Assembly (NCBI RefSeq): GCF_000310185.1
Contig: NZ_AMXD01000015.1
Location: forward strand, 1-44,767
DNA: 44,767 bases
Reading direction: 5' to 3'
Source: Thauera aminoaromatica S2
GTDB taxonomy: Bacteria; Pseudomonadota; Gammaproteobacteria; Burkholderiales; Rhodocyclaceae
Positions 1,491 to 23,418 of the stretch are shown here, in pieces. The notes beneath the pieces were generated by a model. That model was not told where the DNA came from. It saw nothing but the letters and a program-made list of their open reading frames with translations, and made no database searches. Every line of letters begins with the position of its first letter. The stretch's first letter is position 1. The translations under genes and the position numbers were made by a program.

Positions 1491-1491
1491 G

Positions 1492-4400
1492 ATGCACGCC
1501 CCCGTGATGGAACCTTCAAGCGCTGTGCCCACCGACACGGCCGCCAACCCGACAACGGCCGGCCTGCTCGATCGCGTCATCGACTGGTCGGCACGCAACG
1601 TCTTCCTGGTGCTGCTGGCCACGCTGTTCCTGATCGGTGGTGGCGTGTATGCGGTCAAGCACACGCCGCTCGACGCGCTGCCCGACCTGTCCGACGTGCA
1701 GGTGATCGTCTACACCGACTATCCCGGCCAGGCGCCGCAGGTGGTCGAGGACCAGGTCACCTATCCGCTCACCACCTCCATGCTGGCGGTGCCGCGCGCC
1801 AAGGTGGTGCGCGGCTTCTCGATGTTCGGCGCGTCCTACGTGTATGTGATCTTCGAGGACGGCACCGACATCTACTGGGCGCGCTCGCGCGTGCTCGAGT
1901 ACCTGAGCACCGCTGCCGGCCGCCTGCCGCAGGGCGTGGCGCCGCAGATCGGCCCGGACGCGACCGGCGTGGGCTGGGTGTACCAGTACGCGGTGCTCGG
2001 CAAGGACATGAGCCTGGCCGACACGCGCAGCCTGCAGGACTGGTACGTGCGCTACCAGCTCACCAAGGCGCAGGGCGTGTCGGAGGTCGCCAGCATCGGC
2101 GGCTTCGTGCGCGAGTACCAGGTCACGGTCGATCCGCTGCGCCTGGCGGGCTACGGCATCACGCTCGATGCGGTCACGCAGGCGATCCGCGCCTCCAACC
2201 GCGACGTCGGCGGCCGCGTGGTGGAGCTCGCCGAGAAGGAATACATGGTGCGCGGGCGTGGTTACCTGCGCAGCGTGGACGACATCGCCGGCATCGTGCT
2301 CAAGGCCGAGCGCGGCACCCCGGTGCGGGTGGGCGACGTCGCCCGCGTCGAGCTGGTGCCGGCCGAGCGGCGCGGCATCGCCGAGCTCAACGGCGAGGGC
2401 GAGGTGGCCTCGGGCATCGTGATGGCGCGCTTCGGCCAGAACGCGCTCGACGTGATCGCCAACGTCAAGGCCAAGATCGCCGAGATCACGCCGGGCCTGC
2501 CGGCGGGCGCCGAGATCGTGCCGGTCTACGACCGCTCGGAGCTCATCGAGCGCGCGATCGGCAACCTGAAATGGACGCTGCTCGAGGAGAGCCTGATCGT
2601 CGCCGCGGTGTGCGTGATCTTCCTGCTCCATGTGCGCAGCGCACTGGTGGCGATCATCACGCTGCCGCTGGGCATCCTGTTCGCCTTCATCGCCATGCGC
2701 TCGCTCGGGCTGGGCTCGAACATCATGAGCCTGGGCGGCATCGCGATCGCGATCGGAGCGATGGTGGATGCGGCGATCGTGATGATCGAGAACGCGCACA
2801 AGCACATCGAACGCCTGCCCGAGGGCGCCACCCAGCCGCAGCGCGCGGCGGCGATCGTGCTCGCGTGCAAGGAGGTCGGGCCGGCGCTGTTCTTCTCGCT
2901 GCTGATCATCACCGTGTCCTTCCTGCCGGTGTTCGCGCTCGAAGGCCAGGAGGGCCGGCTGTTCTCGCCGCTCGCCTTCACCAAGACCTTCGCCATGGCC
3001 GGGGCCGCGCTGCTGTCGGTGACCCTGGTGCCGGTGCTGATGCTGTTCTTCGTGCGCGGGCGCATCCTGCCCGAGGCGAAGAACCCGGTGAACCGGCTGC
3101 TGATCTGGCTGTACCGCCCGATCATCCAGGGCGTGCTGCGTTTCAAGGTCCTCACGCTCGTGCTCGCCGTGCTGGCGATGGCCGCGACCGTCGTCCCCGC
3201 GCGCCAGATCGGCTCGGAGTTCATGCCGACCTTGAATGAAGGCACGCTGTTCTACATGCCGGCGGCGCTGCCGGGGATGTCGGTGACCGAGGCCGGGCGC
3301 CTGCTCGCCACGACGAACCGCATCATCAAGACCTTCCCCGAGGTGGAATCCGTCTACGGCAAGGCCGGCCGCGCCAACACCGCGACCGACCCGGCGCCGC
3401 TGGAGATGTTCGAGACGGTGATCAACCTGAAGCCGCAGGATCAGTGGCGGCCTGGGATGACCACCGACAAGCTGATCGCCGAGATGGACGCTGCGCTCAA
3501 GTTCCCGGGGCTGGCCAACTCATGGACCATGCCGATCAAGGCGCGCATCGACATGTTGAGCACCGGCATCCGCACCCCGGTGGGGGTGAAGGTCTTCGGC
3601 AAGGACCTGGAGACGCTGGAGAAGGTGGCGCAGGCGGTGGAGGCGGCCGTGCGCAAGTTGCCGGGCGCGAGCAGCGCCTACGCCGAGCGCGTGGCCGGTG
3701 GCTACTACGTGGACATCGTGCCGCGCCGCGACCAGCTCGCGCGCTACGGGCTCACCATCGACATGGTGCAGGACGTGATCGCCACCGCGCTCGGCGGCGA
3801 GATGGTGACGACCACGGTCGAGGGTCTGGAGCGCTACGGCGTGTCGGTACGCTATGCGCGCGGCTTGCGCGACGACCCGGCGCGGCTCGCGTCCGACGTC
3901 TTCGTGCCGACGATGAACGGCCCGATCCCGCTCGGCCAGGTGGCCGAGGTCAAGCTGACGCGTGGCGCCCCGGGCATCCGCACCGAGAACGCGCTGCTCG
4001 CGGCCTACGTGTATGTCGACACCCGCGAGGCCGACCTCGGCGCCTTCGTCAAGCGCGCGCAGCAGGCGGTGGCCGAGGAAGTCGCGTTCCCGCAGGGCTA
4101 TTACGCCACCTGGAGCGGCCAGTTCGAGAACATGGAGCGCGCCAAGGAGAAGATGAAGATCGTCGTGCCGGTGACGCTGGCGCTGATCTTCGTGCTGCTC
4201 TACCTCAACTTCCGCCGGCTCACCGAGACCCTGATCGTGATGCTGTCGGTGCCCTTCGCGCTGGTGGGCGGGGTGTGGCTGATGTGGTGGCTGGGCTACC
4301 AGATGAGCGTGGCGGTGGCGGTGGGCTTCATCGCGCTCGCCGGGGTGGCGGCGGAGACCGGCGTGATCATGCTGATCTACCTGGACCACGCATGGAAGGC

Positions 4401-4731
4401 AGTCTGCGCGCGCAGGCAGGCCGAGGGCCGCGCGGCCGGCATCGCTGATCTCTACGCGGCGATCATGGAAGGCGCGGTCGAGCGCGTGCGGCCGAAGATG
4501 ATGACCGTGGTGGCGATCATGGCCGGCCTGTTGCCCATCATGTGGAGTACCGGCACCGGCGCCGAGGTGATGAGCCGCATCGCCGCGCCGATGGTGGGCG
4601 GCATGGTGTCCTCGACCTTGCTGACGCTGGCGGTGATCCCGGCGCTCTATGCGCTGGTCAAGCAGTGGGAGCTGCGCCGCAGCGCCAGGCACGCACCCGC
4701 GCAGGCGCTGGCCACGGTGTCGGATCTGTAA
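1492..4731 (+). CDS. cusA: CusA-type Cu(I)/Ag(I) RND efflux pump
   Basis: Inner-membrane heavy-metal RND (HME) proton antiporter, 1079 residues from ATG 1492; an alternative ATG is at 1507. The sequence is CusA-like throughout: an N-terminal membrane segment, then PLDALPDLSDVQVIVYTDYP, GPDATGVGWVYQYA, and the proton-relay motif GAMVDAAIVMIENAHKHIE in the central membrane bundle. Met589 (FYMP), Met639 (APLEM) and Met688 (IDMLSTGI) have exactly the 50- and 49-residue spacing of the copper triad M573/M623/M672 of E. coli CusA, which supports monovalent copper/silver as substrate rather than the zinc/cobalt of CzcA. The C terminus keeps the EVMSRIAAPM motif. It follows cusB directly. No cusC-like outer-membrane gene is visible; it may lie upstream of the window. 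Intact. Confidence 0.96.
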   Translation: MHAPVMEPSSAVPTDTAANPTTAGLLDRVIDWSARNVFLVLLATLFLIGGGVYAVKHTPLDALPDLSDVQVIVYTDYPGQAPQVVEDQVTYPLTTSMLAVPRAKVVRGFSMFGASYVYVIFEDGTDIYWARSRVLEYLSTAAGRLPQGVAPQIGPDATGVGWVYQYAVLGKDMSLADTRSLQDWYVRYQLTKAQGVSEVASIGGFVREYQVTVDPLRLAGYGITLDAVTQAIRASNRDVGGRVVELAEKEYMVRGRGYLRSVDDIAGIVLKAERGTPVRVGDVARVELVPAERRGIAELNGEGEVASGIVMARFGQNALDVIANVKAKIAEITPGLPAGAEIVPVYDRSELIERAIGNLKWTLLEESLIVAAVCVIFLLHVRSALVAIITLPLGILFAFIAMRSLGLGSNIMSLGGIAIAIGAMVDAAIVMIENAHKHIERLPEGATQPQRAAAIVLACKEVGPALFFSLLIITVSFLPVFALEGQEGRLFSPLAFTKTFAMAGAALLSVTLVPVLMLFFVRGRILPEAKNPVNRLLIWLYRPIIQGVLRFKVLTLVLAVLAMAATVVPARQIGSEFMPTLNEGTLFYMPAALPGMSVTEAGRLLATTNRIIKTFPEVESVYGKAGRANTATDPAPLEMFETVINLKPQDQWRPGMTTDKLIAEMDAALKFPGLANSWTMPIKARIDMLSTGIRTPVGVKVFGKDLETLEKVAQAVEAAVRKLPGASSAYAERVAGGYYVDIVPRRDQLARYGLTIDMVQDVIATALGGEMVTTTVEGLERYGVSVRYARGLRDDPARLASDVFVPTMNGPIPLGQVAEVKLTRGAPGIRTENALLAAYVYVDTREADLGAFVKRAQQAVAEEVAFPQGYYATWSGQFENMERAKEKMKIVVPVTLALIFVLLYLNFRRLTETLIVMLSVPFALVGGVWLMWWLGYQMSVAVAVGFIALAGVAAETGVIMLIYLDHAWKAVCARRQAEGRAAGIADLYAAIMEGAVERVRPKMMTVVAIMAGLLPIMWSTGTGAEVMSRIAAPMVGGMVSSTLLTLAVIPALYALVKQWELRRSARHAPAQALATVSDL

Positions 4732-4910
4732 TGCAGCGGTCAGTGGTGCGACCGCATCATGGGCGCAGGCTGTTTCCAAGGCTCCATCGCCGGGTTACCG
4801 CTGAACATCATGAAGACCATGGCGATGCTTGCCCGGCGGAAATCCCTGCGAAGATCCTTCAGTACCCGGTGTCGCCGGACTGCTCGACGCCGCCCGGCCG
4901 TTTCAGTCCC

Positions 4911-5456
4911 GAGCCCGCTTCATAAGGATGCCGATCGACATGAAGACCCTGAAAATCCTCTGGCAGCGACTCGTCACGCCGGAAGGCGACACCTGCGAGC
5001 GCTGCGGCAGCACGCACGATGCCATCGTCCAGGTCATGCCCACGCTGCGGGACGTGCTGCGGCCGTTGGGCATCATGCCCGTCCTGGAGACGCGGGAGAT
5101 CGCGCTCGACGCCTTCAAGGGCATGCCTTCGGAATCGAACCGGATCTGGATCGCCGGGCGCTCGATCGAGGACTGGCTCGACGCGAGCGTCGGCAAGAGC
5201 ACCTGCTGCTCGGCCTGTGGCGGGGCGGAGTGCCGGACGCTGGAGATCGGCAGCGAGACCTTCGAGGCGATTCCCGAACAACTGATCCTGAAGGCCGCGC
5301 TGCTGGCCGCAGCCGCATCCCTCGGCGCTGGCGGCGACGAAGGGTCCGGCTGCTGTGTCCAGCAGCCAGGCTGCCGTCCCGGCGCTTGATCAGCGGACGC
5401 CCGAAATGCGGCGACCCGACCCGCTCGGCAGGTTTCTCTTTGCCCTCATCAGTCTC
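4911..5456 (+). repeat. Direct repeat DR1 (546 bp), left copy
   Basis: This stretch matches 23419-23964 without any insertion or deletion (constant offset 18508), with about ten mismatches by eye. It covers the whole DUF2703 gene, about 30 bases upstream and about 65 bases downstream. Similarity stops abruptly on both sides, so the boundaries are sharp. The repeats are direct and flank the catabolic block. They could be two insertions of one small mobile segment, or the scar of a duplication. Confidence 0.95.
4940..5389 (+). CDS. DUF2703 family cysteine-rich protein, copy 1
   Basis: A 149-residue protein of unknown function that fits the DUF2703 family from memory of its pattern. It has an N-terminal MKTLKILWQRLV strand, a CERC pair at residues 19-22, a central IWIAGRSIEDWLDA segment, a Cys-rich CCSACGGAEC stretch and a C-terminal CCVQQPGC. 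The cysteine pairs suggest metal or thiol chemistry, but no activity should be claimed. ATG 4940 was chosen because AAGGA at 4924-4928 lies 11 bases upstream; an in-frame ATG at 4928 overlaps that site. It lies 208 bp after cusA on the same strand, which hints at a metal-stress link. Copy 2 at 23448 differs at seven bases in the coding part, only two changing residues (Thr to Ala, Ala to Val). Confidence 0.8.
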   Translation: MKTLKILWQRLVTPEGDTCERCGSTHDAIVQVMPTLRDVLRPLGIMPVLETREIALDAFKGMPSESNRIWIAGRSIEDWLDASVGKSTCCSACGGAECRTLEIGSETFEAIPEQLILKAALLAAAASLGAGGDEGSGCCVQQPGCRPGA

Positions 5457-5515: not shown

Positions 5516-7407
5516 CCCGACTTTGACACCACCAAGTCACACGCCCCGCCACATGGCGCGCAGCGCAAGGCGTCCGACGAGGGGCCGGAAACGGGCGTGT
5601 ATCTATGTGGGAGTCGCGCTCAATCGAGCTTGAGGATGGCCGGCGTCGGCATGATCTTCAATGCTTTCAGTCGGTTGGCTGCTTACGTCGTCGGCTCGGT
5701 GATCTGCCAGACGGTGCCGTTGGGGCTGGACAATTGCGCAAGCTGGATGCGCCTGAGATCGTCGCGGATGTTGCGCCAAGTGTCCTGGCAGGCGTGCTCG
5801 ATCACGCGCTCCAGGAGCAATGCCAGCACCGTGATCGCTATATGGGCGTGGATGCGGTGCGGCGCCCAGTTGAACATGGGGCGCATGCGCAGGCCGCCCT
5901 TCATCGTGCGCCAGGCCTCTTCGACTCGCTGCTGCTGCTTGTAGCCGAGCGCCATGTCCTCGGCGGTGAGGGTGTCGTCGTTGCTGTGGACGACGAACTT
6001 GCCGTCGAAACGTTCGAGCTCGGCGATGCCCTGGCGGTCGATCGCCAGGCCGTGCTTGGTCTCTTTCAAGAAGCGCCTGTAGCGCGCATACGCGCTTGCT
6101 GTGTCCGCCCTCGTCCTGATCGGCCAGGCAGGCGAGTTCGGCCTCGAGCTCAAGGATGCGCTCGGCGCGATAGGTGCGCTGTCGATGGGCCTCCTGTGGG
6201 TTGAAGCACACTGCATAGCGCCGCCGCCTACGACGACCTCCTTGACTTCGAGGTTGTCGGCTATCTTGCGGTAGCGGCCCGGGCGCAATAGCACCGCTTC
6301 GGTGACCTCGTCGCCACGGCGCATCGGAATCGCCTCAGGTACTTGCCGCCGCCCTTCGCGAGCGCCTGGAAGTTCGCCTGCGAGACCATCCCGGCGTCAC
6401 CGACGAACAGGCTGCAGGTGAGCTGCCAGCCCTTCAGATCTTCCTTGACCCGGGCCACCGTGGTGACATTGACGGTGTCGCCCTGAAACACCCAGTGGCG
6501 CACCGCAAAGCCGTCGCGCGTGACCGCCAAGCCGACCACGATCTGCGGCGCATCGCCCCGCCCGTTTGCTGTAACCGCGCTTGCGGGGCGCCACGTAGCG
6601 CTTGGCGCCGGCCGCGACGCTACCCTGCATCTGGCCATCAAGGTCGCCCGCATCCTCGTTGTCGATCTCGAAGTGCAATGAGGTGGTGTCGTAGAACACG
6701 ATCTCCACGTCTAGGCTCAACAGGTCGGCGACCTGGAAGAAGATCGCCTGCTCGATGGCGGCCTTGTTCGCCTCGAGGAAGTCCATCGCGCGGTAGAGCT
6801 GGTGCAGCGCCAGGGCCTGCGTGCCTTCGATATGCACCTCCTCCTCGAGCTACTGTTCATGACAGTAGAGTTTGGAGCCCGGCGCACAGGCGCGATTGGC
6901 CACCAGCGCGAACAAGGCCCGCTCCAACTCGAAGCCGAAGCGCCGCCCCTCGGCCTGCGCACGTACGATGGCGTCGATCCCGAGCCGCCGCCAAACTGCC
7001 TCAAGCGCATGCACATCGCCATAGGGCCAGGCGCACACCAGCTGCCAGCCCGGATCGTCGGCAACGATGGTCTCGGGCGAGCATCGGCGCAGGATACTCT
7101 TGGCAAGACGGCGCAGCCGCTCAATGACCTCCGGATCGTCTGCACGGCCGCAGTTGAACACGATCCGGGCCTGTGAGCGCCCCTTCGAGGCATCCCACAC
7201 GTTCTCAGCCAGTTGCAGGTAGGTGATCTCCCGTCCGTCGGCCCGCTTCTGTTTGCTCTGTCTCAGGTACATGTGCAGCACAGTAGCGGCTTCACGGCCG
7301 AAAAATCAACAATCCATGTATCTAGGATTTTGGCGCATCATCGCCCGGAAACCCGCGCCGTTGCTGGAGGTGGGGCGGAAATGTGCCTTGGAAGTGTCAA
7401 AGTCGGG
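5516..7407 (-). mobile_element. IS1634-family-like insertion sequence, decayed
   Basis: The ends are defined by matching terminal inverted repeats. The left end reads CCCGACTTTGACAC from 5516, and the reverse complement of 7394-7407 gives the same 14 bases. Similarity continues beyond (CCAAG-CACA on both sides). The element is 1892 bp, a usual size for this family. It holds one broken transposase gene on the minus strand. The flanks do not form a target duplication: the right flank is inside the aldehyde dehydrogenase gene, while the left flank is sequence next to DR1 that does not continue that gene. This implies a deletion or rearrangement adjacent to the IS after insertion. Confidence 0.85.
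5683..7281 (-). pseudogene. IS1634-family transposase, multiple frameshifts
   Basis: Read on the minus strand, transposase segments appear in order but in changing frames. The N terminus is at 7281-6850 (MYLRQSKQKRADGREITYL, then ARIVFNCGRAD). The DDE-core portion follows at 6837-6560 (VEIVFYDTTSLHFE), then ALAVTRDG-like and LFVGDAGMVS segments at 6600-6330. The C-terminal part is at 6324-5683 (FDGKFVVHSNDD, RVEEAWRTMKGGLRMRP). At least four frame changes and a stop near 6850 break it, so it cannot be active in cis. The VFYDTTS and VGDAGM segments carry what should be the first two catalytic Asp residues, and the late RVEEAWRTMK segment the Glu, by family analogy. Confidence 0.85.
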
Positions 7408-8709
7408 TTCGATCCTGCGGGCGAAAGCGAGTCCACGCGCACTATCCCGTGTCCATACGGAGGAACCCAAGCCGTACTCGCTGTCATTGGCCCAAGCGAG
7501 TACCTGCTCCTCGGAATCGTAAGCAACGACCGGGATGATTGGGCCGAATTGCTCACGTGAGGTGGTCTGCGCTTCGTGCGCCACGTCGCTAACGACGTGG
7601 GGGAGGACGTAGTAGCCATTGTCCCACTGGTCAGGCTCGAGCCTGCGGCCGAGCTCCACCACCTTTGCGGGGCCGGACTTAGCCCCATCGATAAACTTGC
7701 ACACACGCTCGTACTGAGCCTTGTTGTTCAAGGGGCCGAGCGTTGCCTCCGGGTTCAACCCATGTCCCACCTTGTACTCGGATACGCGTTGGCACAAAGC
7801 GTCTACAAACCTGCGGTAGGACGCACGTGGAACATAGATGCGCTTTACCGCGAAACAAATCTGGCCGCTGCGTGTGAAGATCCCCGGCAACATCCGGTCC
7901 AGCGTGGCGTCGAGGTCTGCATCGTCGAGGACGATTGCCGGATCGTTACCACCGAGTTCGAGGGTGATGTTTTTTATCGTGTTGGCTGCGCCGGTCATGA
8001 TGTGACGTGCGGTCGCTGTTCCGCCGGTGAAGGCTACCTTGCGGACAAGGGGGTGGGTTGTCAGCGCTTGGCCCACTTCGACATCCCCTTGGACTACGTT
8101 GATTACGCCTTCGGGGAAAAACATGCTCAATCGCTCGATCAGCAGGGTCAGTGCTCCTGCTGCGAAGGGGGATGGCTTGAGGACCAGCGTGTTTCCTGTC
8201 GCAAGCGCAGGAGCGAGCTTCATCATCGTCAGCACCACCGGCATGTTCCAAGGCACGATGGCTGAGACTACGCCACGCGGATCCTTCTCTATGCTGATGA
8301 AGCTCTGTTCCTCGTCGTGCGTGACAGGGTTGAAGAAGCGCTCCGCGAGATCGGCGGTGTGACTCAGCACTCCGTATCCCAGCGCAAAATCGGCCTGAGC
8401 CTCCCATGACACGCCTCCGTGTTCGCGAACAAGGAGGGGGCCAAGTTCGGCCGAGTTGGCTTGGACAAGCGCAGCAGCCTTCGCAAGTGATGCCGCACGC
8501 TGAGCCACCGGCGTGTCTCGCCAGCCCGGGAAGGCTCGATAGGCCTGTTGGACTGCCAGGTCTACATCTGCCGCCGTACCGATAGCAATTCGCGACGCTA
8601 CCGAGTCCAGGCGGCCCGGGTCATAGTGCGCGCGGTACTGATCTGCAGTGGCTCCACTAAACAGATGGCCTATGGCAGGCGGGGTGAAAGGCTGCATTTT
8701 TGTGTTCAT
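7306..8709 (-). pseudogene. Aldehyde dehydrogenase, C terminus replaced by IS sequence
   Basis: NAD(P)-dependent aldehyde dehydrogenase superfamily, oxidising an aldehyde to the acid. Genuine sequence runs from ATG 8709 (GGAGAG upstream) to about 7408, about 434 codons, where the IS terminal repeat begins. The last 34 codons to the stop at 7306 are IS-derived. Visible motifs are VPWNMPVVLTMMKLAPALATGNT (cofactor site), FTGGTAT, the general-base Glu in LELGGNDPA and the catalytic Cys in RSGQICFAVKR. The usual C-terminal 45-50 residues (the G-G-x-K-x-S-G region) are missing, so a working enzyme is unlikely. It is the last gene of the leftward operon that begins with the Had-like gene, and its start lies 117 bp after the zinc-ribbon gene. 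The native substrate is unknown. Confidence 0.85.
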
Positions 8710-8826
8710 CTCGTGTCTCTCCGTCGATGATTGGGGGCGCTGTTTTGCTGGCGGAGCGCTCCTCTTGCAGCCCGGGTGCGTCGAAGCGTGCGGCAGTGAG
8801 GTTGGACGGGTTCGGTCCCCGTCGCA

Positions 8827-9057
8827 TCAGGGGGCAGAGGGCATGTTATTGGGGCCTAGGCCGGTCTGGACGCCGGCCTTCAGCTCGGCTTTCCGCCTGT
8901 CGCTGAACTCGGCCAAGGCACATGCGAATTCCGTCTGGGCTTCCGCGGAGATCGGTGCTCCACACTCGTAGCATGCGCTCTTGATGCGGTCGACCCAGCG
9001 GCAGCCACAGTTGTCGCAGGCGAGCTCTGGAGCGCCGCGGGGATTGGTGAAGATCAT
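8827..9057 (-). CDS. Small zinc-ribbon-like protein (76 aa)
   Basis: A 76-residue protein with two Cys pairs near its N terminus, LACDNCGCRWVDRI and SACYECGAP, i.e. CxxC-(about 15)-CxxC, the layout of a zinc ribbon or rubredoxin-like knuckle. The rest is a charged helix. Its ATG overlaps the stop of the preceding gene in an ATGA arrangement, so translation is probably coupled, which argues that it is real. Position between a flavoenzyme and an aldehyde dehydrogenase suggests an accessory or scaffold role, or possibly an electron-transfer role. I do not recognise a named family. Confidence 0.7.
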   Translation of the reverse strand: MIFTNPRGAPELACDNCGCRWVDRIKSACYECGAPISAEAQTEFACALAEFSDRRKAELKAGVQTGLGPNNMPSAP

Positions 9058-9461
9058 CGGCAGGCCCCCATGAATGCAAAGCCCAGCGCTTCAAGCAACT
9101 CCTCGTAGCCGAGGGCTTCTAGGTCGCAACGCCTGCGCAGCATGTAGCAAACGACCTCGCCGGAGCGAATTCCAGCACGCAGCACATCGAACAGCCCATT
9201 CCGGGCTACGGCAACGATGTCGCCCAAGGCCGAATCGTTGGCAGCCATTAGCAAGTCCACCCCTGCATTGGCGTACCCGGGAAACGTGGCTAGGCAAGCC
9301 CCAGGGCCGCCTGCAGCAGCCTCCCACACGAGCATCTGCGCCGGTGCCGAGCGCGCGATAAGGCCGATCCGGGCCCCCTCATCCAGGGCCTGGAACAGCT
9401 CTGGTCGAGCCGCTGCGGCAGCCCGCCAAGCCTGCGGATCGGGAAGCGCGGCGCTATTCAT
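9054..9461 (-). CDS. Uncharacterised 135-aa protein of the Had/OYE operon
   Basis: A 135-residue, mostly helical, Ala/Leu-rich protein with no signal peptide and no clear membrane segment. Segments include MLVWEAAAGGPGACLATFPGYANAGVD near the middle and a C-terminal CDLEALGYEELLEALGF. Both ends are coupled by four-base ATGA overlaps, to the upstream OYE-type flavoenzyme (stop 9458-9460) and the downstream zinc-ribbon gene (start 9057). This tight packing says the three products are made together, perhaps in fixed ratio. I do not recognise the family and give no function; a small subunit or chaperone of the flavoenzyme is one possibility. Confidence 0.72.
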   Translation of the reverse strand: MNSAALPDPQAWRAAAAARPELFQALDEGARIGLIARSAPAQMLVWEAAAGGPGACLATFPGYANAGVDLLMAANDSALGDIVAVARNGLFDVLRAGIRSGEVVCYMLRRRCDLEALGYEELLEALGFAFMGACR

Positions 9462-11425
9462 ATCCGTACACCCAACCGGAATCCTTCCTGGATCGCCTGC
9501 TCAAGGCCGCGGGGGACTACTGCATCGCCGATACCGTGGAGTTCATCGACCATCCACTCGAACTCATGGAGTAGATCATGGGCCGGCTTGCGCGATGCGG
9601 CGAGTAGCACGGTATCGGCAGGGACAAAGCTTTCTTCGCCCTTGTCATTGAGGACGGTCACTCCATCGGTCGTAATCCGCGTCGGGCGGCTGCTCGTGAG
9701 GCAACGGATACCCAACTCGTCGACCCAGGAAGCGTGACGCCACTTGAACGACGGTTTGATATCGCCGGCGATACGTTTTTCGCGCTCGACCACGGTGACC
9801 TCTGCCCCGTTCTTGCGGAGGGATTCGCCTACGGTAAGACCTATCTTGCCTCCGCCGACAATCACCACCCTGCTACCGGTCTTTACCCGCCCGTGCGCGA
9901 CATCGAGCGCATCGATCATCAACTCGTGCCCCTCGACCGTGCAATGGCTGTCGTGGTCGATAGTTGCGCCAGCCGCGACGACGCAAACGTCGTACTGATG
10001 CAGGACGCTGCGCATGAACTTTGCGTGGACCTCGGTGTTGAGCCGAATCTCAACCCCGACCCGCTTCGCGACCGCTTCGTAATGCCGGATGATCGAATGA
10101 AGATCGTCCGGGCGAGCGAGATCGTTGGCGGCATACGCATAGAGGTTGCCGCCGATGCGCCCAGTCTTCTCGAACACGGTGACTTCGTGCCCCCGCTTGG
10201 CTGCCGTGATCGCGCACTCCATGCCCGCCGGCCCCGAGCCGATCACCATGATCTTCTTCTTCACAGTGGTGGGCGTGACGTGATATTCGGGCTCCACTTC
10301 GTGCCCAAGAGCCGGATTCATCGTGCAGGTGTAGGGCAAGTCGCGGAACAGACGCGACAGGCAGTTGAGCGAACCGACACAGCGGCGAACCTCGTCCAAG
10401 CGATCCTCGGCGGCCTTGTGGATCAACTCCGGGTCGGCCAGCAGGGGCCGACAGACTTCCCAAAAGTCGAAAACGCCGTCACGAATGCAGTCGTTCGCCA
10501 TGCGAGGATCGGGAAGGCGGTTGCCGAATGTGATCAAGGTATTTGGGAACGTCTTCTTTGCCCGCTCGGACAGATAGTTCCAGTAGCCGGGAGGGATGTC
10601 GCGACCGATGGATGACTCGGGCGCTTCCTGCCAGCCTACCGTGACGCTGATCATGTCGACGCCACAGTCCACGGCCTGCTGCATCAACTCGAAGCATTCG
10701 TCTTCAGTATTTCCACCCCATTTATCCATCAACTCGGCACCGTTGAGGCGCACGATCAGCGGATTGTCGGGAGTCGCCTGCTTGATGCCGTCGATCAACT
10801 CCCGCATGAAGCGGCCTCGATTCTGAATCGAGCCGCCATATTCGTCCGTTCGCTGGTTAGTGAAGCGAGAGTTGAAGTTGGCGAGTAGGTATCCCATGAA
10901 ACTGGTGATCTCGGTACCGTCAAATCCGGCGCGGATACAGCGCTTCGCAGCGTCAGCGTGCTGGCGCACACAGTCTCGGATCTCCTCCGTCGTCATGATC
11001 TTCGGCGGCCTGAAGTGAGGAAGCGTCTGCGGCACGTCGGATGGCTGGACGCAGTAGCCGAGATCGATGCCGCCATAGCGGCCTGCGTGCAGGATCTGTT
11101 GAATGGCCATCGCACCCTGATCCTTGATCATGGCGGCGATCTTCTCGAACTGGGGTAAGAACTTATCGTCGTAGATCGCGACTTGGCGGAAATAAGCCTT
11201 ACCTTCGCCCAGGGGGTCGGGATAGGCACCTTGATTGGTGATGATGCCGCAGCCTGTATCGGCGATTACCTTGACGCGCGCCAACTCACGCTCGGTGATG
11301 AAACCATCTCGCGTGTTGTAGTTCGATACGCAGCATGCACCATACTTGATGCGGTTCTTGATCTTGAAGCGCCCGAATTGTCCGGGCTGGAACAGATGGG
11401 GAAGTTTTTGTTCTCCGGAACGCAT
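9458..11425 (-). CDS. OYE-family NADH:flavin oxidoreductase, FMN barrel plus FAD/NAD domain (2,4-dienoyl-CoA reductase type)
   Basis: A 655-residue flavoenzyme with the 2,4-dienoyl-CoA reductase layout. The N-terminal Old-Yellow-Enzyme barrel covers residues 1-340, with QQILHAGRYGG near 109-119, the AGFDGTEI loop near 166 and TNQRTDEYGGS near 189. A cysteine linker follows, then a C-terminal FAD/NAD domain with VIGSGPAGMECA near 394 and a second nucleotide fold VVIVGGGKIGL. Such enzymes transfer hydride from NAD(P)H through FAD, an iron-sulphur cluster and FMN to enoyl or dienoyl, sometimes aryl, CoA thioesters. The usual four-Cys cluster motif is altered: Cys349, Ser352, Cys355 and Cys367, so one ligand is lacking and spacing is one residue short. 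It starts 10 bp after the Had-like gene. A substrate among reduced ring acyl-CoAs is inferred from the neighbours. Confidence 0.88.
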   Translation of the reverse strand: MRSGEQKLPHLFQPGQFGRFKIKNRIKYGACCVSNYNTRDGFITERELARVKVIADTGCGIITNQGAYPDPLGEGKAYFRQVAIYDDKFLPQFEKIAAMIKDQGAMAIQQILHAGRYGGIDLGYCVQPSDVPQTLPHFRPPKIMTTEEIRDCVRQHADAAKRCIRAGFDGTEITSFMGYLLANFNSRFTNQRTDEYGGSIQNRGRFMRELIDGIKQATPDNPLIVRLNGAELMDKWGGNTEDECFELMQQAVDCGVDMISVTVGWQEAPESSIGRDIPPGYWNYLSERAKKTFPNTLITFGNRLPDPRMANDCIRDGVFDFWEVCRPLLADPELIHKAAEDRLDEVRRCVGSLNCLSRLFRDLPYTCTMNPALGHEVEPEYHVTPTTVKKKIMVIGSGPAGMECAITAAKRGHEVTVFEKTGRIGGNLYAYAANDLARPDDLHSIIRHYEAVAKRVGVEIRLNTEVHAKFMRSVLHQYDVCVVAAGATIDHDSHCTVEGHELMIDALDVAHGRVKTGSRVVIVGGGKIGLTVGESLRKNGAEVTVVEREKRIAGDIKPSFKWRHASWVDELGIRCLTSSRPTRITTDGVTVLNDKGEESFVPADTVLLAASRKPAHDLLHEFEWMVDELHGIGDAVVPRGLEQAIQEGFRLGVRI

Positions 11426-11435
11426 GTGTGCTCTC

Positions 11436-12503
11436 CTAGAAATCGGGGGTCAGGACTACACGCTTCTTCAGTTCGCCGTGATGCGCCAGTTCGAATACCT
11501 GAGCGATCTGGCTCATTGGCCGCTCCTCGACGAATGGAGCGAGTGCAATTCGTCCGTCGAGACACATGCCAAGCACTTCCGGATACTTTTCCGGAGTACA
11601 GCCCCATGTGCCAATGATTTCCGCATCGAAGGCCATCAGTCGCGACAACATGTAGGTGGTCTGATCGGTACCGTAGCCAACCACCACCAAGGTTCCGGTG
11701 TAGGAGAGGAGCGCCAAGGCAAGCTCTTGCCCCGCTTTCGTTCCCGTCACTTCGAATATTTTCCATCCATAACCCGAAGGAAGCCCGCGTTCGACACAAT
11801 ATTCAGTGATCAGCTTCTTCAAGTCCTTCGGGGAGCGCCCCTTGGGATTTATGGTGAGATCCGCACCATAATCCCTCATCATCTGAAGCTTCTCTTCGTT
11901 GATGTCGATCCCCACAACTGCCGCGCAGCCCATGCCTTTTGCCACCTGGGTCATGAACGAGCCCACTCCTCCTGCCGCGCCGATCACGATCGCCCGATCG
12001 CCCGGTTGCAGTCGCGCGCGAAGTCCAGCCTGGTAGGGCGTAGTTACAGCATCAGCGACGACCGCCAGATGTTCGAGCGGAACCCCCCCGCGATCAGGCA
12101 CAACACAAAGGACGTTCGCTGGAACGACGATATGACTCGAGAACCCACCATAAATGCCCATCGAATATCCCGGCATGCGTTGTGACAAGCAGCGATTCCC
12201 CCGCCCACTCCGGCAGAGTTCGCATTCACCGCATGGAATGACGGCAGGGACGATGACTTCCTTGCCGATCACCGCCTCGTCGCCGGCAATCACGACACCG
12301 CTGATTTCATGCCCGAGCGACAGCGGAGGCTGCTGGATGGTGGGGACACCCATGTAGAAGTAAGACAGGTCGGTGTGACAGACGCCGCAACCCGCAATCT
12401 CCACGACTGCATCCCCCGGGCTGAGCTCAGGCATCGGGATCCGAGTGCGCTCCAGAACGCCAGGGGTAGTCATTTGCCATGTATCGATGTGCTTGGGCAG
12501 CAT
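11436..12503 (-). CDS. had: Zinc alcohol dehydrogenase resembling 6-hydroxycyclohex-1-ene-1-carbonyl-CoA dehydrogenase (Had)
   Basis: A 355-residue medium-chain Zn-dependent dehydrogenase. From memory it closely follows Had of the benzoyl-CoA pathway of Thauera: GCGVCHTDLSYFYMGVPT near the N terminus (catalytic Cys), PPLSLGHEISG (Zn-binding His-Glu), the structural-zinc cysteines in IPCGECELCRSGRGNRC, the cofactor loop VIGAAGGVGSF, the line AFDAEIIGTWGC and the ending KKRVVLTPDF. Had oxidises a ring secondary alcohol of an alicyclic CoA ester with NAD+. ATG 12503 has GAGGAG 8 bases upstream and is preferred over an upstream in-frame codon at 12518. It heads the leftward operon and is divergent from the NahR-like gene. 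No benzoyl-CoA reductase genes lie in this window, so it may act on a related intermediate. Confidence 0.85.
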   Translation of the reverse strand: MLPKHIDTWQMTTPGVLERTRIPMPELSPGDAVVEIAGCGVCHTDLSYFYMGVPTIQQPPLSLGHEISGVVIAGDEAVIGKEVIVPAVIPCGECELCRSGRGNRCLSQRMPGYSMGIYGGFSSHIVVPANVLCVVPDRGGVPLEHLAVVADAVTTPYQAGLRARLQPGDRAIVIGAAGGVGSFMTQVAKGMGCAAVVGIDINEEKLQMMRDYGADLTINPKGRSPKDLKKLITEYCVERGLPSGYGWKIFEVTGTKAGQELALALLSYTGTLVVVGYGTDQTTYMLSRLMAFDAEIIGTWGCTPEKYPEVLGMCLDGRIALAPFVEERPMSQIAQVFELAHHGELKKRVVLTPDF

Positions 12504-12690
12504 CGGAAATCTCCTCATACGAACCGGTGAATACGACTATTTCAGGGGCCTTCCGCATGCTACTCGCGGCAGACGCCTGCTCCAAAATATTGCGCAACGT
12601 ATTGTTATTGTTGGATTTTTCTCTCAACAGGGGTGGACCTGACGGCCTCTGTAGCGCATCATTACACCTCTATAAAAATTACAAAACGGG

Positions 12691-12703
12691 CTATCAAAGA
12701 TAG
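12691..12703. promoter_or_regulatory. Palindrome in the had/lysR divergent promoter region
   Basis: The 221-bp gap 12504-12724 between two divergent genes is AT-rich compared with the surroundings and must hold both promoters. CTATCAAAGATAG, a 5-bp inverted repeat with a 3-base centre, ends 21 bases before the LysR start. A second palindrome TTGCGCAA is at 12590-12597. Either could be part of a LysR-type regulator site. No exact NahR consensus was found by eye. Confidence 0.35.
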
Positions 12704-12724
12704 TATGTATTGCTGGAGACAATA

Positions 12725-13636
12725 ATGCAGGAACTTGAACTGAAGGACCTCGACCTGAACCTGTTGGTGATATTTCTCCAGCTGTTCCGGGATCGACGCG
12801 TCACTACTGCCGCTGAGGCGCTTGATCTCTCGCAGCCCGGAGTCAGTAGTGCCCTCAACCGCTTACGTCGACTTCTGGGTGACGAACTGTTCTACCGCAC
12901 GGGAAGGGGGATGCAACCAACGCCTTATGCAGAAGAGCTAGCTGAGCCCATCGAAGAGGCCTTGGCTCTGATCCGGCAGACCGTAAATCAGCGTTCCGCC
13001 TTCGACCCGCTCACGAGCTCCCGCCGGTTCGTGATCGGCATGACGGACGTCGGTGAAATTTACTTTGTTCCTTCCCTGATGCGGATCATCAGCAAGCTGG
13101 CTCCCGGGGTAACAATCAGCACCGTTCGGAACAGCAGGGTGAATCTGAAGGTGGAAATGGAGGATGGTCTGGTGGACTTGGCGATCGGTCTTCTGCCCGA
13201 CTTGAAGAATGATTTTTACCAACGCAGGCTTTTCCGGCAGGGGTACGCATGTCTGTTCCGCGTCGGCCACCCTTTCGACGGTGTTCCTTTCGGCGTCGAT
13301 GAATTCGCTGCTGCCGAACATGTGGTGGTGGTTTCATCCGGTACGGGACACGGGAAAACCGATGAGCTCATCGAACGCTCCGCCGTTCGGCGCAACGTAC
13401 GACTACGAGTACCCCACTTCGTCGCGCTACCTTACATCCTTGAAGAAACCGATCTCGTTGCCACTGTCCCCGAGAGAATTGCAATGCGTTTGGCGTCATC
13501 CTTCCCGCTGCGCTTCGTACCCCATCCGTTGGACCTTCCGGATATCCAGATTAACCTCTTCTGGCACGCCAAATACCATCGTGACGCAGGGAGCCAGTGG
13601 CTACGCACCTTGATTTGCGAAACATTTGGCAATTGA
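12725..13636 (+). CDS. NahR-like LysR-family transcriptional regulator
   Basis: A 303-residue LysR regulator. The winged helix-turn-helix (residues 1-65, DLNLLVIFLQLFRDRRVTTA then LSQPGVSSALNRLRRLLGD) is followed by the effector domain. Many segments match my memory of NahR/DntR, the salicylate-responsive regulators: PTPYAEELAEPIEEAL, FDPLTSSRRFVIGMTDVGEIYF, ISTVRNS, DLAIGLLPDLKNDFYQRRL, SSGTGHG and NLFWHAKYHRDAG. ATG 12725 has GGAG 5 bases upstream; an upstream TTG at 12710 is less likely. It is divergent from the had-like operon and so probably controls it. The effector is inferred to be an aromatic carboxylate such as salicylate or an analogue; this is not proven by sequence. Confidence 0.9.
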   Translation: MQELELKDLDLNLLVIFLQLFRDRRVTTAAEALDLSQPGVSSALNRLRRLLGDELFYRTGRGMQPTPYAEELAEPIEEALALIRQTVNQRSAFDPLTSSRRFVIGMTDVGEIYFVPSLMRIISKLAPGVTISTVRNSRVNLKVEMEDGLVDLAIGLLPDLKNDFYQRRLFRQGYACLFRVGHPFDGVPFGVDEFAAAEHVVVVSSGTGHGKTDELIERSAVRRNVRLRVPHFVALPYILEETDLVATVPERIAMRLASSFPLRFVPHPLDLPDIQINLFWHAKYHRDAGSQWLRTLICETFGN

Positions 13637-14332: not shown

Positions 14333-15065
14333 TCAATTCATGCGGCAACCGCGCGCAGGGTCGGCAAGCTTGGGAACCGCAATCTCCACGATCGTGTTCT
14401 GTTTACCTTCGGCCCTGCGTAGGTAAATATCCTGCACCGGGTTGTTGGCTGCCGACAAATTAAAGCTGCCGCGTGGACTTTCAATCTTCGCCGCGCTCAT
14501 CGCCTTCATAACGGCCTCTTTGTCAAACTTGCCTGAAGGAGAGCCCGCCAGACCCGCCGCCAACAACTGGGCTGCATCATATCCCTGCACGGCGTAGACG
14601 TCAGGCTGCACCTTGTGGGCTGAGACGTACCCGGCTCGGAACGCCTTGTCTACCGGATTTTCGAGGCCGTCAGCGTAGTGCAGCGTGGTCAGTAGTCCTT
14701 CACCCGCGCCACCCATTGCCTCCAGCGTCCCGTCAGTCAGGAAGCCCGTTCCGTAAAGCGGAAGATTTGCCTTGAGTCCTGCGGCTTCATAGTCCTTAAC
14801 AAACTTGGCAGCTCCGCTGCCGGCAAAAAAAACGTACACCGCGTCTGCGCCGAGGCTGCTGATCTGCGTCAGGAAGGGCTGAAACTCCACGCCGGGGAAA
14901 GGCAGGTACAACTCGCTAATCACTTGGCCACCTTCCTTTTCGAAAGCTTCCTTGAAGCCCCGCACATATTGCTCGCCAGCCGCGTATTTCCAGGTCAGGG
15001 TGACCACCTTTTTGTGCCCTCTTGCAGCCATGACTTTGCCCATGGCAAACGCCGGCTGCCAATTT
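14333..15065 (-). pseudogene. ABC solute-binding protein (branched-chain amino-acid/aromatic type), 3' part
   Basis: C-terminal two thirds of a periplasmic type-I binding protein (Peripla_BP_6 kind): NWQPAFAMGKVMAARGHKKVVTL, ADAVYVFFAGSGAAKFVKDYE, PDVYAVQGYDAAQLLAAG. It is separated from its 5' part (16760-17213) by an IS1380-type element inserted at 15061-15065. Joining TCAAATT to GGCAGCC across one target copy restores FRTSFSNWQPAF in frame, giving a 393-residue protein of normal family length with no other lesion. The remaining open frame reads 26 residues of IS sequence before this part and has no signal peptide, so it is unlikely to work. Family members in aromatic degraders bind benzoate-like acids as well as leucine. 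No permease or ATPase genes are adjacent. Confidence 0.9.
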
Positions 15066-15080
15066 CCTGAATCCGTGTTC
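15066..15080 (+). repeat. IS1380-type left terminal inverted repeat
   Basis: CCTGAATCCGTGTTC, identical to the reverse complement of 16745-16759. The bases just outside, AATTT at 15061-15065, are repeated at 16760-16764 as the 5-bp target-site duplication. Confidence 0.95.
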
Positions 15081-15307
15081 TCTACAGCGCATACCCGCTC
15101 CGCGAGCCCCAGCGCATGATTCTTCTGCTGCCTGACTCCCAATCTCAGCTCACCGCAGCCCCGAGCGCCGTCCTTTCATGGCCCGGAGCGCCGGCGAGCC
15201 GGGCTTCCGGCGGGTGCGCTATGTCATTTCCCTTCTCCCGCGCGGCCGTCGCCCTTCCGCCGCAGCGAAATGGCCTCGATTCGGAGAATTCGGCCGCCGG
15301 ATTTGCA

Positions 15308-16669
15308 TCACGGCGAAGCCACCGCGCACAGTCGCGCCTGCACCGTGGTGAACACCTTCACATGCGCGGCCACGCCGCGCCCGAAGTCCAGCACCAGGCG
15401 CCGGGCGTGTTCGACGAACTTCGCCGCGCGGTACATCACCTCCTGCAGCACCGTCTTGATGCGCCGGCGCTTGGCCGGGTGGCGGATCGGCGAGAGCTCG
15501 CCGGCCAGCCCGAGCTGGCCGATCAGGCGCAGGCAGTTGTAGGCGAATGCGGCCAGATGCACGACCGCGTCGTTGGTGTCGAACTTACCCGAGGGCAGGC
15601 GCTCGAGGTCCAGGTCGGTCTTGATCTCGGAGTGGAACTGCTCGTGCGTGCCGTGGTGCTTGTAGAGCTCGATCACCTCGGCCATCGCCCCATCGAGGCT
15701 GGTCCACCAGCCTTCGATCTCGATCTCGGGCGCCAGCAGGTGCTGGCCCTTCTTGTCGATGGTGCGCTCGGTCACCCGCACCACCAGGCGCAGCGTGCGC
15801 TTGGCCTTCTTCCAGGCACGATCGATCTTCAGGTCCAGCAGCCCCACCCGCTTGCCCACGCGCGCTTCTTCGAACGCACCGGCGGCCTCGGCCCGATCCA
15901 CCCAGGCGGTCTTGTCCTGGCGGCGCGGGTTCCACTTGGTGAGGTAATCGAACGAACGCCCGAGTTCGGCCCAGCGATCGCGCTCGTCGGCCAGCGCGAA
16001 CAGCAGCCGCGCGCTATCGAAGCCGCTATCGGCGCGCCACAGCAGCTTCGCATCGGCGGCGCACACCCGGCGCAGGCGCGGGAGCGCGCGCTCGAAGAAA
16101 TACTCCGTCTCCAGCGCCGAGTGGTGCGAACCCGCGCGCAGTTCCAGGCCGAGGTTCCAGCCCTCGTTGCCCAGGTACAGCGCGATCGGCGTGTAGCCGT
16201 CGACACCCTGGTAGGTGCGGCTGACCGCTTCCTTCTTGGTGTCGGAGTTGTCCATCACGAAGGTGTCCAGGTCGGCGCAGACGTAGCCCTTGTGCGCCGT
16301 GATCGGCGCCTCGGTGCGCTCGAGCAGGCGCAGGCTCAGCTCGTCGGTCAGCTCGCGCAGCTCGGCCGCGCGGGCATCGAGCCGTTGGCGCATCCACACG
16401 CTGCCGGGCACCTTGGCGAGCCCGAGCGCTTCCTTGAAGAAGCGGTCGCCGCGAAACGGCTCGATCGCCTCGAAGTCGCTCTTGCCCAGGCTCAGCAGCC
16501 CGACCACCGACTTGACCAGATCCGAGCTCAGCATGCCCTGCGACACTGGCAGCCTCGGGTCGATCACCGCCTGAACCTGTGCCGCCTGGCAGCACTGCCC
16601 GATCAGCGCCAGGCCCGAGTACGAGGTCAGGTTGAGCTTGGCGGATTGCTTGACTTCGAAGCGCGGCAT
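15308..16669 (-). CDS. IS1380-family transposase
   Basis: DDE transposase of the IS1380 group within the IS4-like superfamily; 453 residues from ATG 16669 (MPRFEVKQSAKLNLTSYSG). A longer reading from TTG 16708 adds 13 residues. Catalytic candidates are Asp in VCADLDTFVMDNSDTKKE, Asp in LLWRADSGFDSARLL and Glu in HGTHEQFHSEIKTDLDLERLPSG, the last being the Y-REK-like signature region of IS4 relatives. The C-terminal RLVLDFGRGVAAHVKVF is typical. No frameshift or stop is seen. An A/T-rich TTGTACAATTACAT just upstream may contain its promoter. Confidence 0.93.
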   Translation of the reverse strand: MPRFEVKQSAKLNLTSYSGLALIGQCCQAAQVQAVIDPRLPVSQGMLSSDLVKSVVGLLSLGKSDFEAIEPFRGDRFFKEALGLAKVPGSVWMRQRLDARAAELRELTDELSLRLLERTEAPITAHKGYVCADLDTFVMDNSDTKKEAVSRTYQGVDGYTPIALYLGNEGWNLGLELRAGSHHSALETEYFFERALPRLRRVCAADAKLLWRADSGFDSARLLFALADERDRWAELGRSFDYLTKWNPRRQDKTAWVDRAEAAGAFEEARVGKRVGLLDLKIDRAWKKAKRTLRLVVRVTERTIDKKGQHLLAPEIEIEGWWTSLDGAMAEVIELYKHHGTHEQFHSEIKTDLDLERLPSGKFDTNDAVVHLAAFAYNCLRLIGQLGLAGELSPIRHPAKRRRIKTVLQEVMYRAAKFVEHARRLVLDFGRGVAAHVKVFTTVQARLCAVASP

Positions 16670-16744
16670 GGTCGGTTGGGTGAATGAGTCGGATGCGTAA
16701 TTGTACAATTACATCAATGCGTTAGGCTGGATTTCCGGCTAAAC

Positions 16745-16759
16745 GAACACGGATTCAGG
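16745..16759 (-). repeat. IS1380-type right terminal inverted repeat
   Basis: GAACACGGATTCAGG on the plus strand, the perfect reverse complement of the left end at 15066-15080, followed by the AATTT target copy at 16760-16764. Confidence 0.95.
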
Positions 16760-17213
16760 AATTTGAAAACGAAGTTCGGAAAACGTTCGGGGCGCACAGC
16801 TGGCCAGTGAGTTCGTCGGCGCCCGCATTCGGGATGATGGTCAAGGTCTTGTTGTCGCGGGCTACCTTTGCCATCGCTAGTGCAACACCGGAATGGACTG
16901 TTCCTACCAAGACATCGACTTCGTCCCGCTTGACAAGACGATTAGCATTTTCGGTTGCTTTGGCTGGATCGGACTCGTCATCGACCACGAAATACGTTAC
17001 CTCGCGTCCAGCGAGCTTACCACCATGTTCGTTCACATACTGTCTAAAACCGTTGGTGATTGCGGTGCCGAGTGCGGCATAAGTGCCCGTATACGGAAGC
17101 ATCAAGCCAACTTTGACTTTGTCTTCAGCGTTAGCGCTGCTCAAGGACATTAGCGCCGTCAAGCCAAGACCCAGTGCTGTGGCAGAAAGACGTACCCGTT
17201 TGCGATTGTTCAT
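16760..17213 (-). pseudogene. ABC solute-binding protein, 5' part
   Basis: N-terminal third of the interrupted binding protein. ATG 17213 has AGGAGAC 7 bases upstream. It begins with a clear Sec signal peptide (MNNRKRVRL, hydrophobic ALGLGLTALMSLSS, cleavage after SANA), then mature EDKVKVGLMLPYTGTYAALG and LVGTVHSGVALAMAKVARD, typical of the branched-chain amino-acid binding-protein family. Coding sense stops at the IS end; the frame closes within a few codons. It lies 173 bp downstream of the EntE-like ligase on the same strand, consistent with a shared transcript for uptake and activation of one substrate. Confidence 0.9.
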
Positions 17214-17386
17214 TTTTGTCTCCTCTTGTGCGTGCGAGCGGCTGTTAAGCAAAAGGCGTGAGTGCTTGCAAACTTCACCTGAAAAAATTCGCCGAACTTC
17301 TTCAGGCTCATTAAAATAATCTCATCGTGACAATCGGCCTTCTTGAATTCAATCTCCTTGGCTTTTCTGCGGCGACACTGGATGCT

Positions 17387-23317: not shown

Positions 23318-23418
23318 GGGCGATCTTTACCTGTTGTGGTCGGTTATTGCCCTTCCTGCCAGCATATTCCCCAGTCAACCCTTCATCGCAAAAGGTCTGA
23401 TCGTCGAGACGCGCTCCG

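Follow-up and report, generated by a model that had tools for sequence, protein, structure and literature searches.

An old yellow enzyme-type operon in Thauera aminoaromatica S2, proposed to carry out ATP-free ring reduction of ortho-substituted benzoyl-CoA esters

Background

Can bacteria break the ring of salicylate or anthranilate without oxygen and without the ATP-driven benzoyl-CoA reductase (BCR)? The question is raised by an operon on contig NZ_AMXD01000015.1 of Thauera aminoaromatica S2 (the window, here, is the whole 44,767-nt stretch that was analysed), in which a dehydrogenase, a flavoenzyme of the old yellow enzyme (OYE) family and two small proteins are encoded opposite a LysR-type regulator. 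Monocyclic benzoyl-CoA is known to be dearomatised by benzoyl-CoA reductases. Those OYE-type aryl-CoA reductases that the cited papers describe act on naphthoyl-CoA and phenanthroyl-CoA (PMC6502838, PMC12093976; these and later citations refer to excerpts of the papers named), and the genes of anaerobic 2-aminobenzoate degradation are described as barely known (PMC8388817).

The gene set looks like one for breaking the salicylate ring, and in relatives the anthranilate ring, by neither oxygen nor an ATP-driven BCR. The evidence is family placement, residue conservation, gene context and a genome-level association with the hydrolase Oah, all read from sequence, and on that footing we put at about 0.5 the probability that these genes belong to a conserved system for the ATP-free ring reduction of ortho-substituted benzoyl-CoA esters. 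Candidate genes can now be named for a barely known reaction, with Aromatoleum species as cultivated hosts; if the proposal is true, an ortho hydroxyl or amino group can make ring reduction cheap through tautomerisation. No description of the operon, or of an OYE-type salicyloyl- or anthraniloyl-CoA reductase, was met in titles and abstract openings of the literature (long lists partly covered, subscription papers mostly outside), from which we do not claim absence from print.

A sequence-only reading of this DNA had described five minus-strand genes and a divergent LysR gene, all of which are present. Together with a ligase gene nearby they are:

11436-12518, minus strand: Had-like dehydrogenase, 360 aa (TIGR03201; PDB 7qul)
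9458-11425, minus strand: three-domain OYE flavoenzyme, 655 aa, proposed ATP-independent salicyloyl-/anthraniloyl-CoA reductase (best PDB match 2-naphthoyl-CoA reductase, NCR, 6qkg)
9054-9461, minus strand: small protein, 135 aa, SCP2-like fold predicted (ATGA overlap)
8827-9057, minus strand: zinc-ribbon-like small protein, 76 aa, five conserved Cys (ATGA overlap)
7306-8709, minus strand: aldehyde dehydrogenase, 3'-truncated, probably a passenger (Aldedh match incomplete, gene unconserved)
12710-13636, plus strand: divergent LysR-type regulator (profile matches, Aromatoleum orthologues)
17387-19099, minus strand: EntE/DhbE-type aryl-acid ligase, proposed to be this system's salicylate-CoA ligase (best PDB match 5wm2)

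The flavoenzyme and its family

The flavoenzyme combines Oxidored_FMN and Pyr_redox_2 domains (Pfam) in the three-domain FMN/Fe-S/FAD architecture of NCR and type III aryl-CoA reductases. Its match to NCR scores 408.7 bits, that to E. coli dienoyl-CoA reductase (DCR) 247.6, and in a 17-row tree, which holds one type III reference only, its clade is sister to NCR (support 100/99) and apart from the 2,4-dienoyl-CoA reductases. The sequence-only reading had called it a dienoyl-CoA-reductase-type enzyme; the architecture is indeed that of FadH, but the grouping is with NCR.

Residue counts were taken over 81 rows, 79 of them readable (L088 and L089 are badly cut and were scored as gaps). Tyr82, Tyr197, Arg245, Asn247, Thr280, Trp340, Glu341 and Cys343 of NCR are kept in every readable row; Tyr197 and Tyr82 are described as catalytic in NCR, and Glu341 as helping to lower the FMN potential (PMC6502838). 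The set Tyr197, Tyr82, Asn247, Thr280 and Trp340-Glu341-x-Cys343 is complete in none of eight comparison OYEs (DCR and seven controls): Trp340 and Glu341 are absent from DCR and 7/7 controls, while all seven controls keep the four Fe-S cysteines. The clade departs from NCR in having Gln for His284, His for Arg155 and Phe for Tyr156 (79/79 rows) and Cys for Val38 (78/78 readable), at about 35% overall identity. The second Fe-S cysteine of NCR (Cys370) is missing, with a one-residue deletion, in all 79 readable rows including the window's, and the four-Cys [4Fe-4S] ligand set of type III reductases is not found in the clade. A further difference from NCR is that the gene neighbours point to a monocyclic, ortho-substituted benzoyl-CoA.

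A conserved module in relatives

When a genome collection was scanned for the flavoenzyme, 121 relatives came up, and the best 80 loci were retained for all locus counts. Gene content was scored by tblastn with fixed thresholds, because our home-made gene caller missed or shortened low-scoring genes, and the counts are lower bounds because contigs often stop close by (at least 4 kb on either side of the flavoenzyme is available in only 56/80 loci). The 135-aa protein was found in 64 loci, the 76-aa ribbon protein in 62, an EntE-like ligase in 41, a Rid gene in 29, a flavin monooxygenase in 27, a benzoate-CoA-ligase-type gene in 17, Oah, described as the ring-opening hydrolase (PMC5742626), in 10, Had in 8 and a PadI-like subunit in 7; in 16/80 loci all five marker groups (FMO/GDO, OAH/HAD, Rid, EntE, PadI/cyclase) are missing. 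The trio of flavoenzyme, small protein and ribbon protein turns up repeatedly, in loci whose titles name Beta- and Alphaproteobacteria and Bacillota, more than chance would give. The five-gene unit of the sequence-only reading is not supported as such, the aldehyde dehydrogenase being unconserved.

Aromatoleum diolicum (L019) and A. buckelii (L020), with flavoenzymes that share 93% and 92% identity with that of the window, carry a major facilitator superfamily (MFS) transporter, ligase and LysR gene on one strand and, on the other, Had, flavoenzyme, small protein, ribbon protein, Oah, a second Had and Rid, together with a second small-protein copy. In L019, Oah scores 538.3 on TIGR03200 (cut-off 464.45) and the second Had 508.6 on TIGR03201 (cut-off 338.65); neither L019 nor L020 has Dch or BCR genes at the tblastn thresholds. 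Oah and/or Had without Dch or BCR genes occur in 6/80 loci (L019, L020, L033, L067, L075, L079), with contig or locus ends limiting the view in L067, L075 and L079. The closest operons share with the benzoyl-CoA pathway of Thauera, Azoarcus and Aromatoleum the Had and Oah families, both over curated cut-offs; they differ from it in pairing Had and Oah with an OYE enzyme, without Dch or an ATP-dependent reductase. In the Aromatoleum genomes behind L019, L037 and L041, Oah genes (L111, L115, L117) have no Had or Dch in the stretch covered. Upstream of the flavoenzyme in L085 and L088 (titled Bacillota and Desulfosporosinus), molybdopterin-oxidoreductase-like genes were recognised by eye.

The window's dehydrogenase, which the sequence-only reading had placed close to 6-hydroxycyclohex-1-ene-1-carbonyl-CoA dehydrogenase, belongs there by profile (537.9 bits on TIGR03201, cut-off 338.65) and by best PDB match (Had, 7qul). 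In the Had tree (the Had and Oah trees leave out L008, L010, L017, L102 and L128, as well as Oah rows shorter than 250 aa: L067, L075, L122, L123), it groups with Hads of the Aromatoleum modules (97/99) within a 15-row clade and lies apart from the Had of its own genome's bcr cluster. It falls among Hads of Dch/BCR clusters, with benzoyl-CoA enzymes and not in a described pathway free of CoA esters, the placement that the sequence-only reading had set against its own proposal.

The flavoenzyme and 135-aa genes, and the 135-aa and 76-aa genes, each overlap by ATGA, and the two small-protein genes, described as coupled in the sequence-only reading, are judged from these overlaps with their upstream neighbours to be translationally coupled. 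The 135-aa protein has a single Pfam match, below cut-off (19.6 vs 27), and among the 62 aligned rows of its family two Pfam families match one row each. Its AlphaFold model (pLDDT 88.8) has sterol carrier protein 2 (SCP2) structures as the top three Foldseek hits (E 6.5e-4 to 1.2e-3, one of them below 0.001; TM 0.38-0.50). In the ribbon protein, C14, C17, C19, C29 and C32 are invariant in 32/32 chosen rows (the window's plus 31 taken from 59 listed relatives); in the raw 63-row set the first three are present in 55 and the last two in 63. Its Pfam matches are all below cut-off (FYDLN_acid is touched in 7/32 rows, best E 4e-4), and its model (pLDDT 86.4) has no fold match at E<=0.001.

Association with Oah across genomes

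The 80 loci lie in 78 genomes (scanned as 49 + 29). Oah exceeds its cut-off in 60/78 of these (42/49 + 18/29) and in 4 of the 300 genomes of the window's order used for comparison, the window's own genome included. Fisher's exact p for 60/78 against 3/299 is 2e-49, a value to be taken as a description and not a probability because the genomes are related, the carriers belong by title to several phyla and the sample is unmatched. In the own genome one Oah alone exceeds its cut-off; it lies in a bcr cluster whose Had, Dch and BcrA-D genes likewise exceed theirs. The genome G716 (locus L072) encodes a Had (544.5 bits) and an Oah, one of each and both above cut-off, as neighbours on a contig that fits that of L072; no PF06050 (BCR-type) gene was found in it, a metagenome-assembled genome that may be incomplete.

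These observations, taken as sequence evidence, support the view that the flavoenzymes form an NCR-like OYE clade whose conserved operon also encodes an aryl-acid ligase and enzymes of the lower benzoyl-CoA pathway.

Ligases and the likely substrates

The window ligase has as best PDB match the salicylate-AMP ligase 5wm2 (504.9 bits), and a related ligase occurs in the 41 loci noted above, from which we take it to belong to the system despite the genes between. An HN(Y/F) motif, which we take to be the pocket motif of the EntE/DhbE-type family, is present in 42/42 readable ligase rows. This ligase type is tied to a monooxygenase: 24/41 loci with the ligase and 3/39 without it have the salicylyl-CoA 5-hydroxylase half (p=1.1e-6). 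This monooxygenase, in 27/80 loci, matches positions 1-385 of a 768-position salicylyl-CoA 5-hydroxylase/oxidoreductase model at 405 bits, where the whole-model cut-off is 1078.

A second ligase type matches anthranilate-CoA ligase best, at 312.7 bits (no benzoate ligase scores above 235.7), and is tied to Rid, found in 16/17 loci with this ligase and 13/63 others (p=3.5e-8). The Rid assignment is by PF01042 in two members. Among the 29 Rid loci, 25 have either this second ligase type or a PadI/cyclase set; the four exceptions are L019, L020, L025 and L061. PadI-like genes (839.6 bits in L046, cut-off 700) are confined to 7/80 loci, all seven with Rid, where our guess is a route from isatinate to anthraniloyl-CoA.

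In L075, of Paramagnetospirillum caucaseum, the ligase and OYE module lie between a Had/Had/partial-Oah group and a group holding the 5-hydroxylase half, a 4HBT thioesterase, a maleylacetoacetate/maleylpyruvate-isomerase-type gene over the maiA cut-off and, below cut-off, a fumarylacetoacetate-hydrolase-family gene and a gentisate-dioxygenase-like gene (272 vs 442). The set points to salicyloyl-CoA as a shared intermediate, and we read this locus, from its gene content, as aerobic and oxygen-independent branches that would meet at that ester. The aerobic salicylate route runs via salicylyl-CoA and gentisate; it has in common with our module the kind of ligase and, in the 27 loci above, the 5-hydroxylase half, and to our knowledge it involves neither OYE nor Had nor Oah. 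Judged by these neighbours, the substrate of the flavoenzyme is likely salicyloyl-CoA or anthraniloyl-CoA, in line with the ATP-free OYE-type aryl-CoA route with an EntE-like ligase that had been proposed from the sequence alone: ligase context, NCR grouping and the presence of Oah in complete relatives favour that proposal, and its function is a prediction at the level of sequence.

Proposed route

From this context we infer a site of hydride attack, a product, an electron donor and roles for Had and the small proteins. The EntE-like ligase would make salicyloyl-CoA. The OYE enzyme would draw on a low-potential donor via FAD and its Fe-S site (for NCR, NAD(P)H is reported not to serve as donor; PMC6502838) and pass a hydride to the ring, probably para, with a tyrosine giving the proton. 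Hydride at C4 and a proton at C3 would yield a dienol or dienamine, whose tautomer is a 6-oxo or 6-imino compound. The 6-oxo product, salicyloyl-CoA + 2 H, would itself be the Oah substrate and be opened to 3-hydroxypimeloyl-CoA; in the anthranilate version the dienamine/imine would be hydrolysed by the Rid-family protein to the same ketone. Had would interconvert the 6-hydroxy and 6-oxo levels, a conversion that the route could not do without should the OYE enzyme act in two 2-electron steps. An accessory part, in ligand or electron handling, is suggested for the SCP2-like and ribbon proteins, and in the window strain Oah would be supplied by the separate bcr cluster. The Oah and Had copies beside the module, together with Rid, favour ring reduction by hydride at C4 over dehydroxylation or deamination at C2.

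In its fullest form the proposal is tentative, and we would bet somewhat against it: a widespread OYE-type clade would dearomatise monocyclic salicyloyl-CoA and anthraniloyl-CoA ATP-free, the tautomerised product being Oah-ready and BCR by-passed; the Fe-S site would have three cysteines, with the fifth ribbon-protein Cys as possible fourth ligand or redox partner; and some bacteria would keep anaerobic and aerobic gentisyl-CoA branches on one ligase.

Ring reduction at C4 must be tempered by several results that weigh against it. The flavoenzyme is only 35.3% identical to NCR and 31.7% to the E. coli dienoyl-CoA reductase, and its join to NCR in the tree is less safe because the branches are long and were flagged as such. 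The lead of the salicylate match for the window ligase is narrow (2,3-dihydroxybenzoate ligase 489.3, salicylate ligase PchD 422.7). Cys at its pocket position 240, presumably the salicylate code, is shared by 6/42 rows including the window, with Ser in 36/42, and was not used as proof because it fits the window and not most relatives. The Oah comparison is unmatched by lineage, and Oah was not found at E<=1e-100 in 18/78 carriers, among them 5/6 titled Bacillota or Desulfosporosinus. Of the 56 loci that extend 4 kb to either side of the flavoenzyme, 8 lack ligases, Oah, Had, PadI and cyclase altogether. In 5/80 loci (L031, L034, L059, L061, L080) Dch and Oah do lie beside the OYE gene, with BCR genes in four; in L031, subunits N and O exceed the bzd cut-offs and a Dch-type gene is below its own (173 vs 292.5). 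A strict two-electron scheme, moreover, gives Had no essential job. A PF06050 gene is present in 73/78 carriers (the family covers other enzymes too), and therefore benzoyl-CoA could be the product; with BCR-type genes near-universal in carriers, a C2-hydride route to it has to be weighed.

As an observation on gene order, the flavoenzyme of L031, L034 and L061 follows Dch-Had-Oah beside bzd-type BCR genes within one cluster.

Alternative readings

That C2 route is the main rival, unlikely in our estimate and still the best of the alternatives: the OYE enzyme would be a reductive dehydroxylase or deaminase, with hydride delivered to C2 (ipso), water or ammonia leaving, and benzoyl-CoA passing to the ATP-dependent benzoyl-CoA reductase. 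It has precedent in A. evansii, which is described as converting anthranilate anaerobically via 2-aminobenzoyl-CoA to benzoyl-CoA by a 2-aminobenzoyl-CoA reductase (PMC4539516), a further point against ring reduction at C4, and in NCR, described as stripping fluoride from 6-fluoro-2-naphthoyl-CoA in a manner consistent with C6 hydride transfer (PMC6502838). The frequency of PF06050 among carriers and the full bcr cluster of the own genome would suit it as well. It leaves unexplained, however, the Oah and Had copies that adjoin the module where Dch and BCR genes are absent, and Rid, and no PF06050 gene was found in G716, possibly incomplete as that genome is.

Less probable again is a variant in which the OYE enzyme reduces the ring in two 2-electron steps, by-passing BCR as the C4 scheme does and giving Had a needed role. 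In the window, as in A. diolicum and A. buckelii, Had is the gene directly before that for OYE, and the title of PMC13101529 reports two consecutive 2-electron steps for the related reductase AprC; against this, two extra electrons would be spent, and Rid suits an imine better than an amine.

We give little credence to an oxygen-dependent hybrid, in which the monooxygenase would hydroxylate the CoA ester and the OYE reduce the product, as a split version of the 2-aminobenzoyl-CoA monooxygenase/reductase of A. evansii. That system also handles an ortho-substituted benzoyl-CoA with flavin monooxygenase and reductase functions (PMC4539516). Our module shows the tie between 5-hydroxylase half and ligase already given (27/80 loci, p=1.1e-6), but the monooxygenase was not found in 53/80 loci, including A. 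diolicum, A. buckelii and two titled Desulfosporosinus, and the neighbours in L075 suggest a gentisate-type route that would need no OYE. The A. evansii enzyme, for which we take the 5-hydroxylase/oxidoreductase model to stand, differs further in being oxygen-dependent, in fusing both functions in one protein as modelled, and in its type of OYE, the window's scoring only 123 bits on the OYE half. An ordinary 2,4-dienoyl-CoA reductase among neighbours of no shared function is very improbable, since the three-domain architecture it would share with FadH is outweighed by a tree and residues that set the flavoenzyme apart from FadH-type enzymes and by strong gene-context and genome-level associations.

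The window copy and its surroundings

The Thauera genes are a damaged copy of this conserved gene set, with a split gene for an ABC-transporter substrate-binding protein (SBP), a truncated aldehyde dehydrogenase and Oah elsewhere in the genome. Further features are:

14333-17252, minus strand: SBP gene in two pieces, 14333-15142 and 16755-17252, split by an insertion sequence
15060-16765, minus strand: ISAzo40-like element (IS1380 family) within the SBP gene, with 21-nt terminal inverted repeats and a DDE transposase
21950-23317, plus strand: MFS transporter, probably part of the island (MFS_1, 164 bits)

No Dch or BCR genes, and no Oah, second Had or Rid of the A. diolicum type, were seen in the neighbourhood of the window copy. 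The insertion sequence is 93.5% identical, across 15060-16761, to an element on a plasmid of A. aromaticum EbN1; a search for its target-site duplication turned up no more than 5 matching nt, which lie within the repeat ends. A related SBP gene occurs in 11/80 loci. Beside their ligase genes, A. diolicum and A. buckelii have MFS transporters 76% and 74% identical to the window's, and the LysR orthologues there, in the same divergent position, are 89% and 84% identical, with the LysR start region and intergenic DNA aligning as well. The best LysR models, BsrA (236.6, cut-off 480) and LeuO (144.9, cut-off 262), are both below cut-off. These matches leave the NahR-like, salicylate-type character given in the sequence-only reading a conjecture (no comparison with NahR itself was made). 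A plasmid search with the flavoenzyme returned 33 records, all below 60% identity (27-32% among the 30 listed), and one with the Had-like protein no match at E<=1e-40.

The aldehyde dehydrogenase, counted as an operon member in the sequence-only reading, was dropped as a pathway enzyme because its C-terminal part is truncated and it is not conserved in related loci: the Pfam Aldedh match ends at 416/461, with the last 33 residues beyond it, and the closest relative within the 80 loci is 33.6% identical, none reaching 35% identity over at least 40% of the length. It is probably a passenger. Frame-broken transposase-like fragments, recognised by eye, adjoin its truncated end at 5683-7281, where the piece 6850-7281 has no Pfam match.

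A 550-bp direct repeat (4907-5456 and 23415-23964, 98% identical) bounds the whole catabolic island of about 18 kb and may mark an insertion or duplication event. Each copy holds a 153-aa gene, the left one being DUF2703. Adjoining the left copy, at 120-4731, are an efflux adaptor (CusB-type and CusF domains) and an RND-type pump (by eye). Within the island, 20385-21599 encodes a flavin monooxygenase that resembles 3-hydroxybenzoate 6-hydroxylase and salicylate hydroxylase, scoring below the cut-off of each, and is not of the salicylyl-CoA 5-hydroxylase type; along most of this gene the DNA is 74% identical to genes on Caballeronia plasmids.

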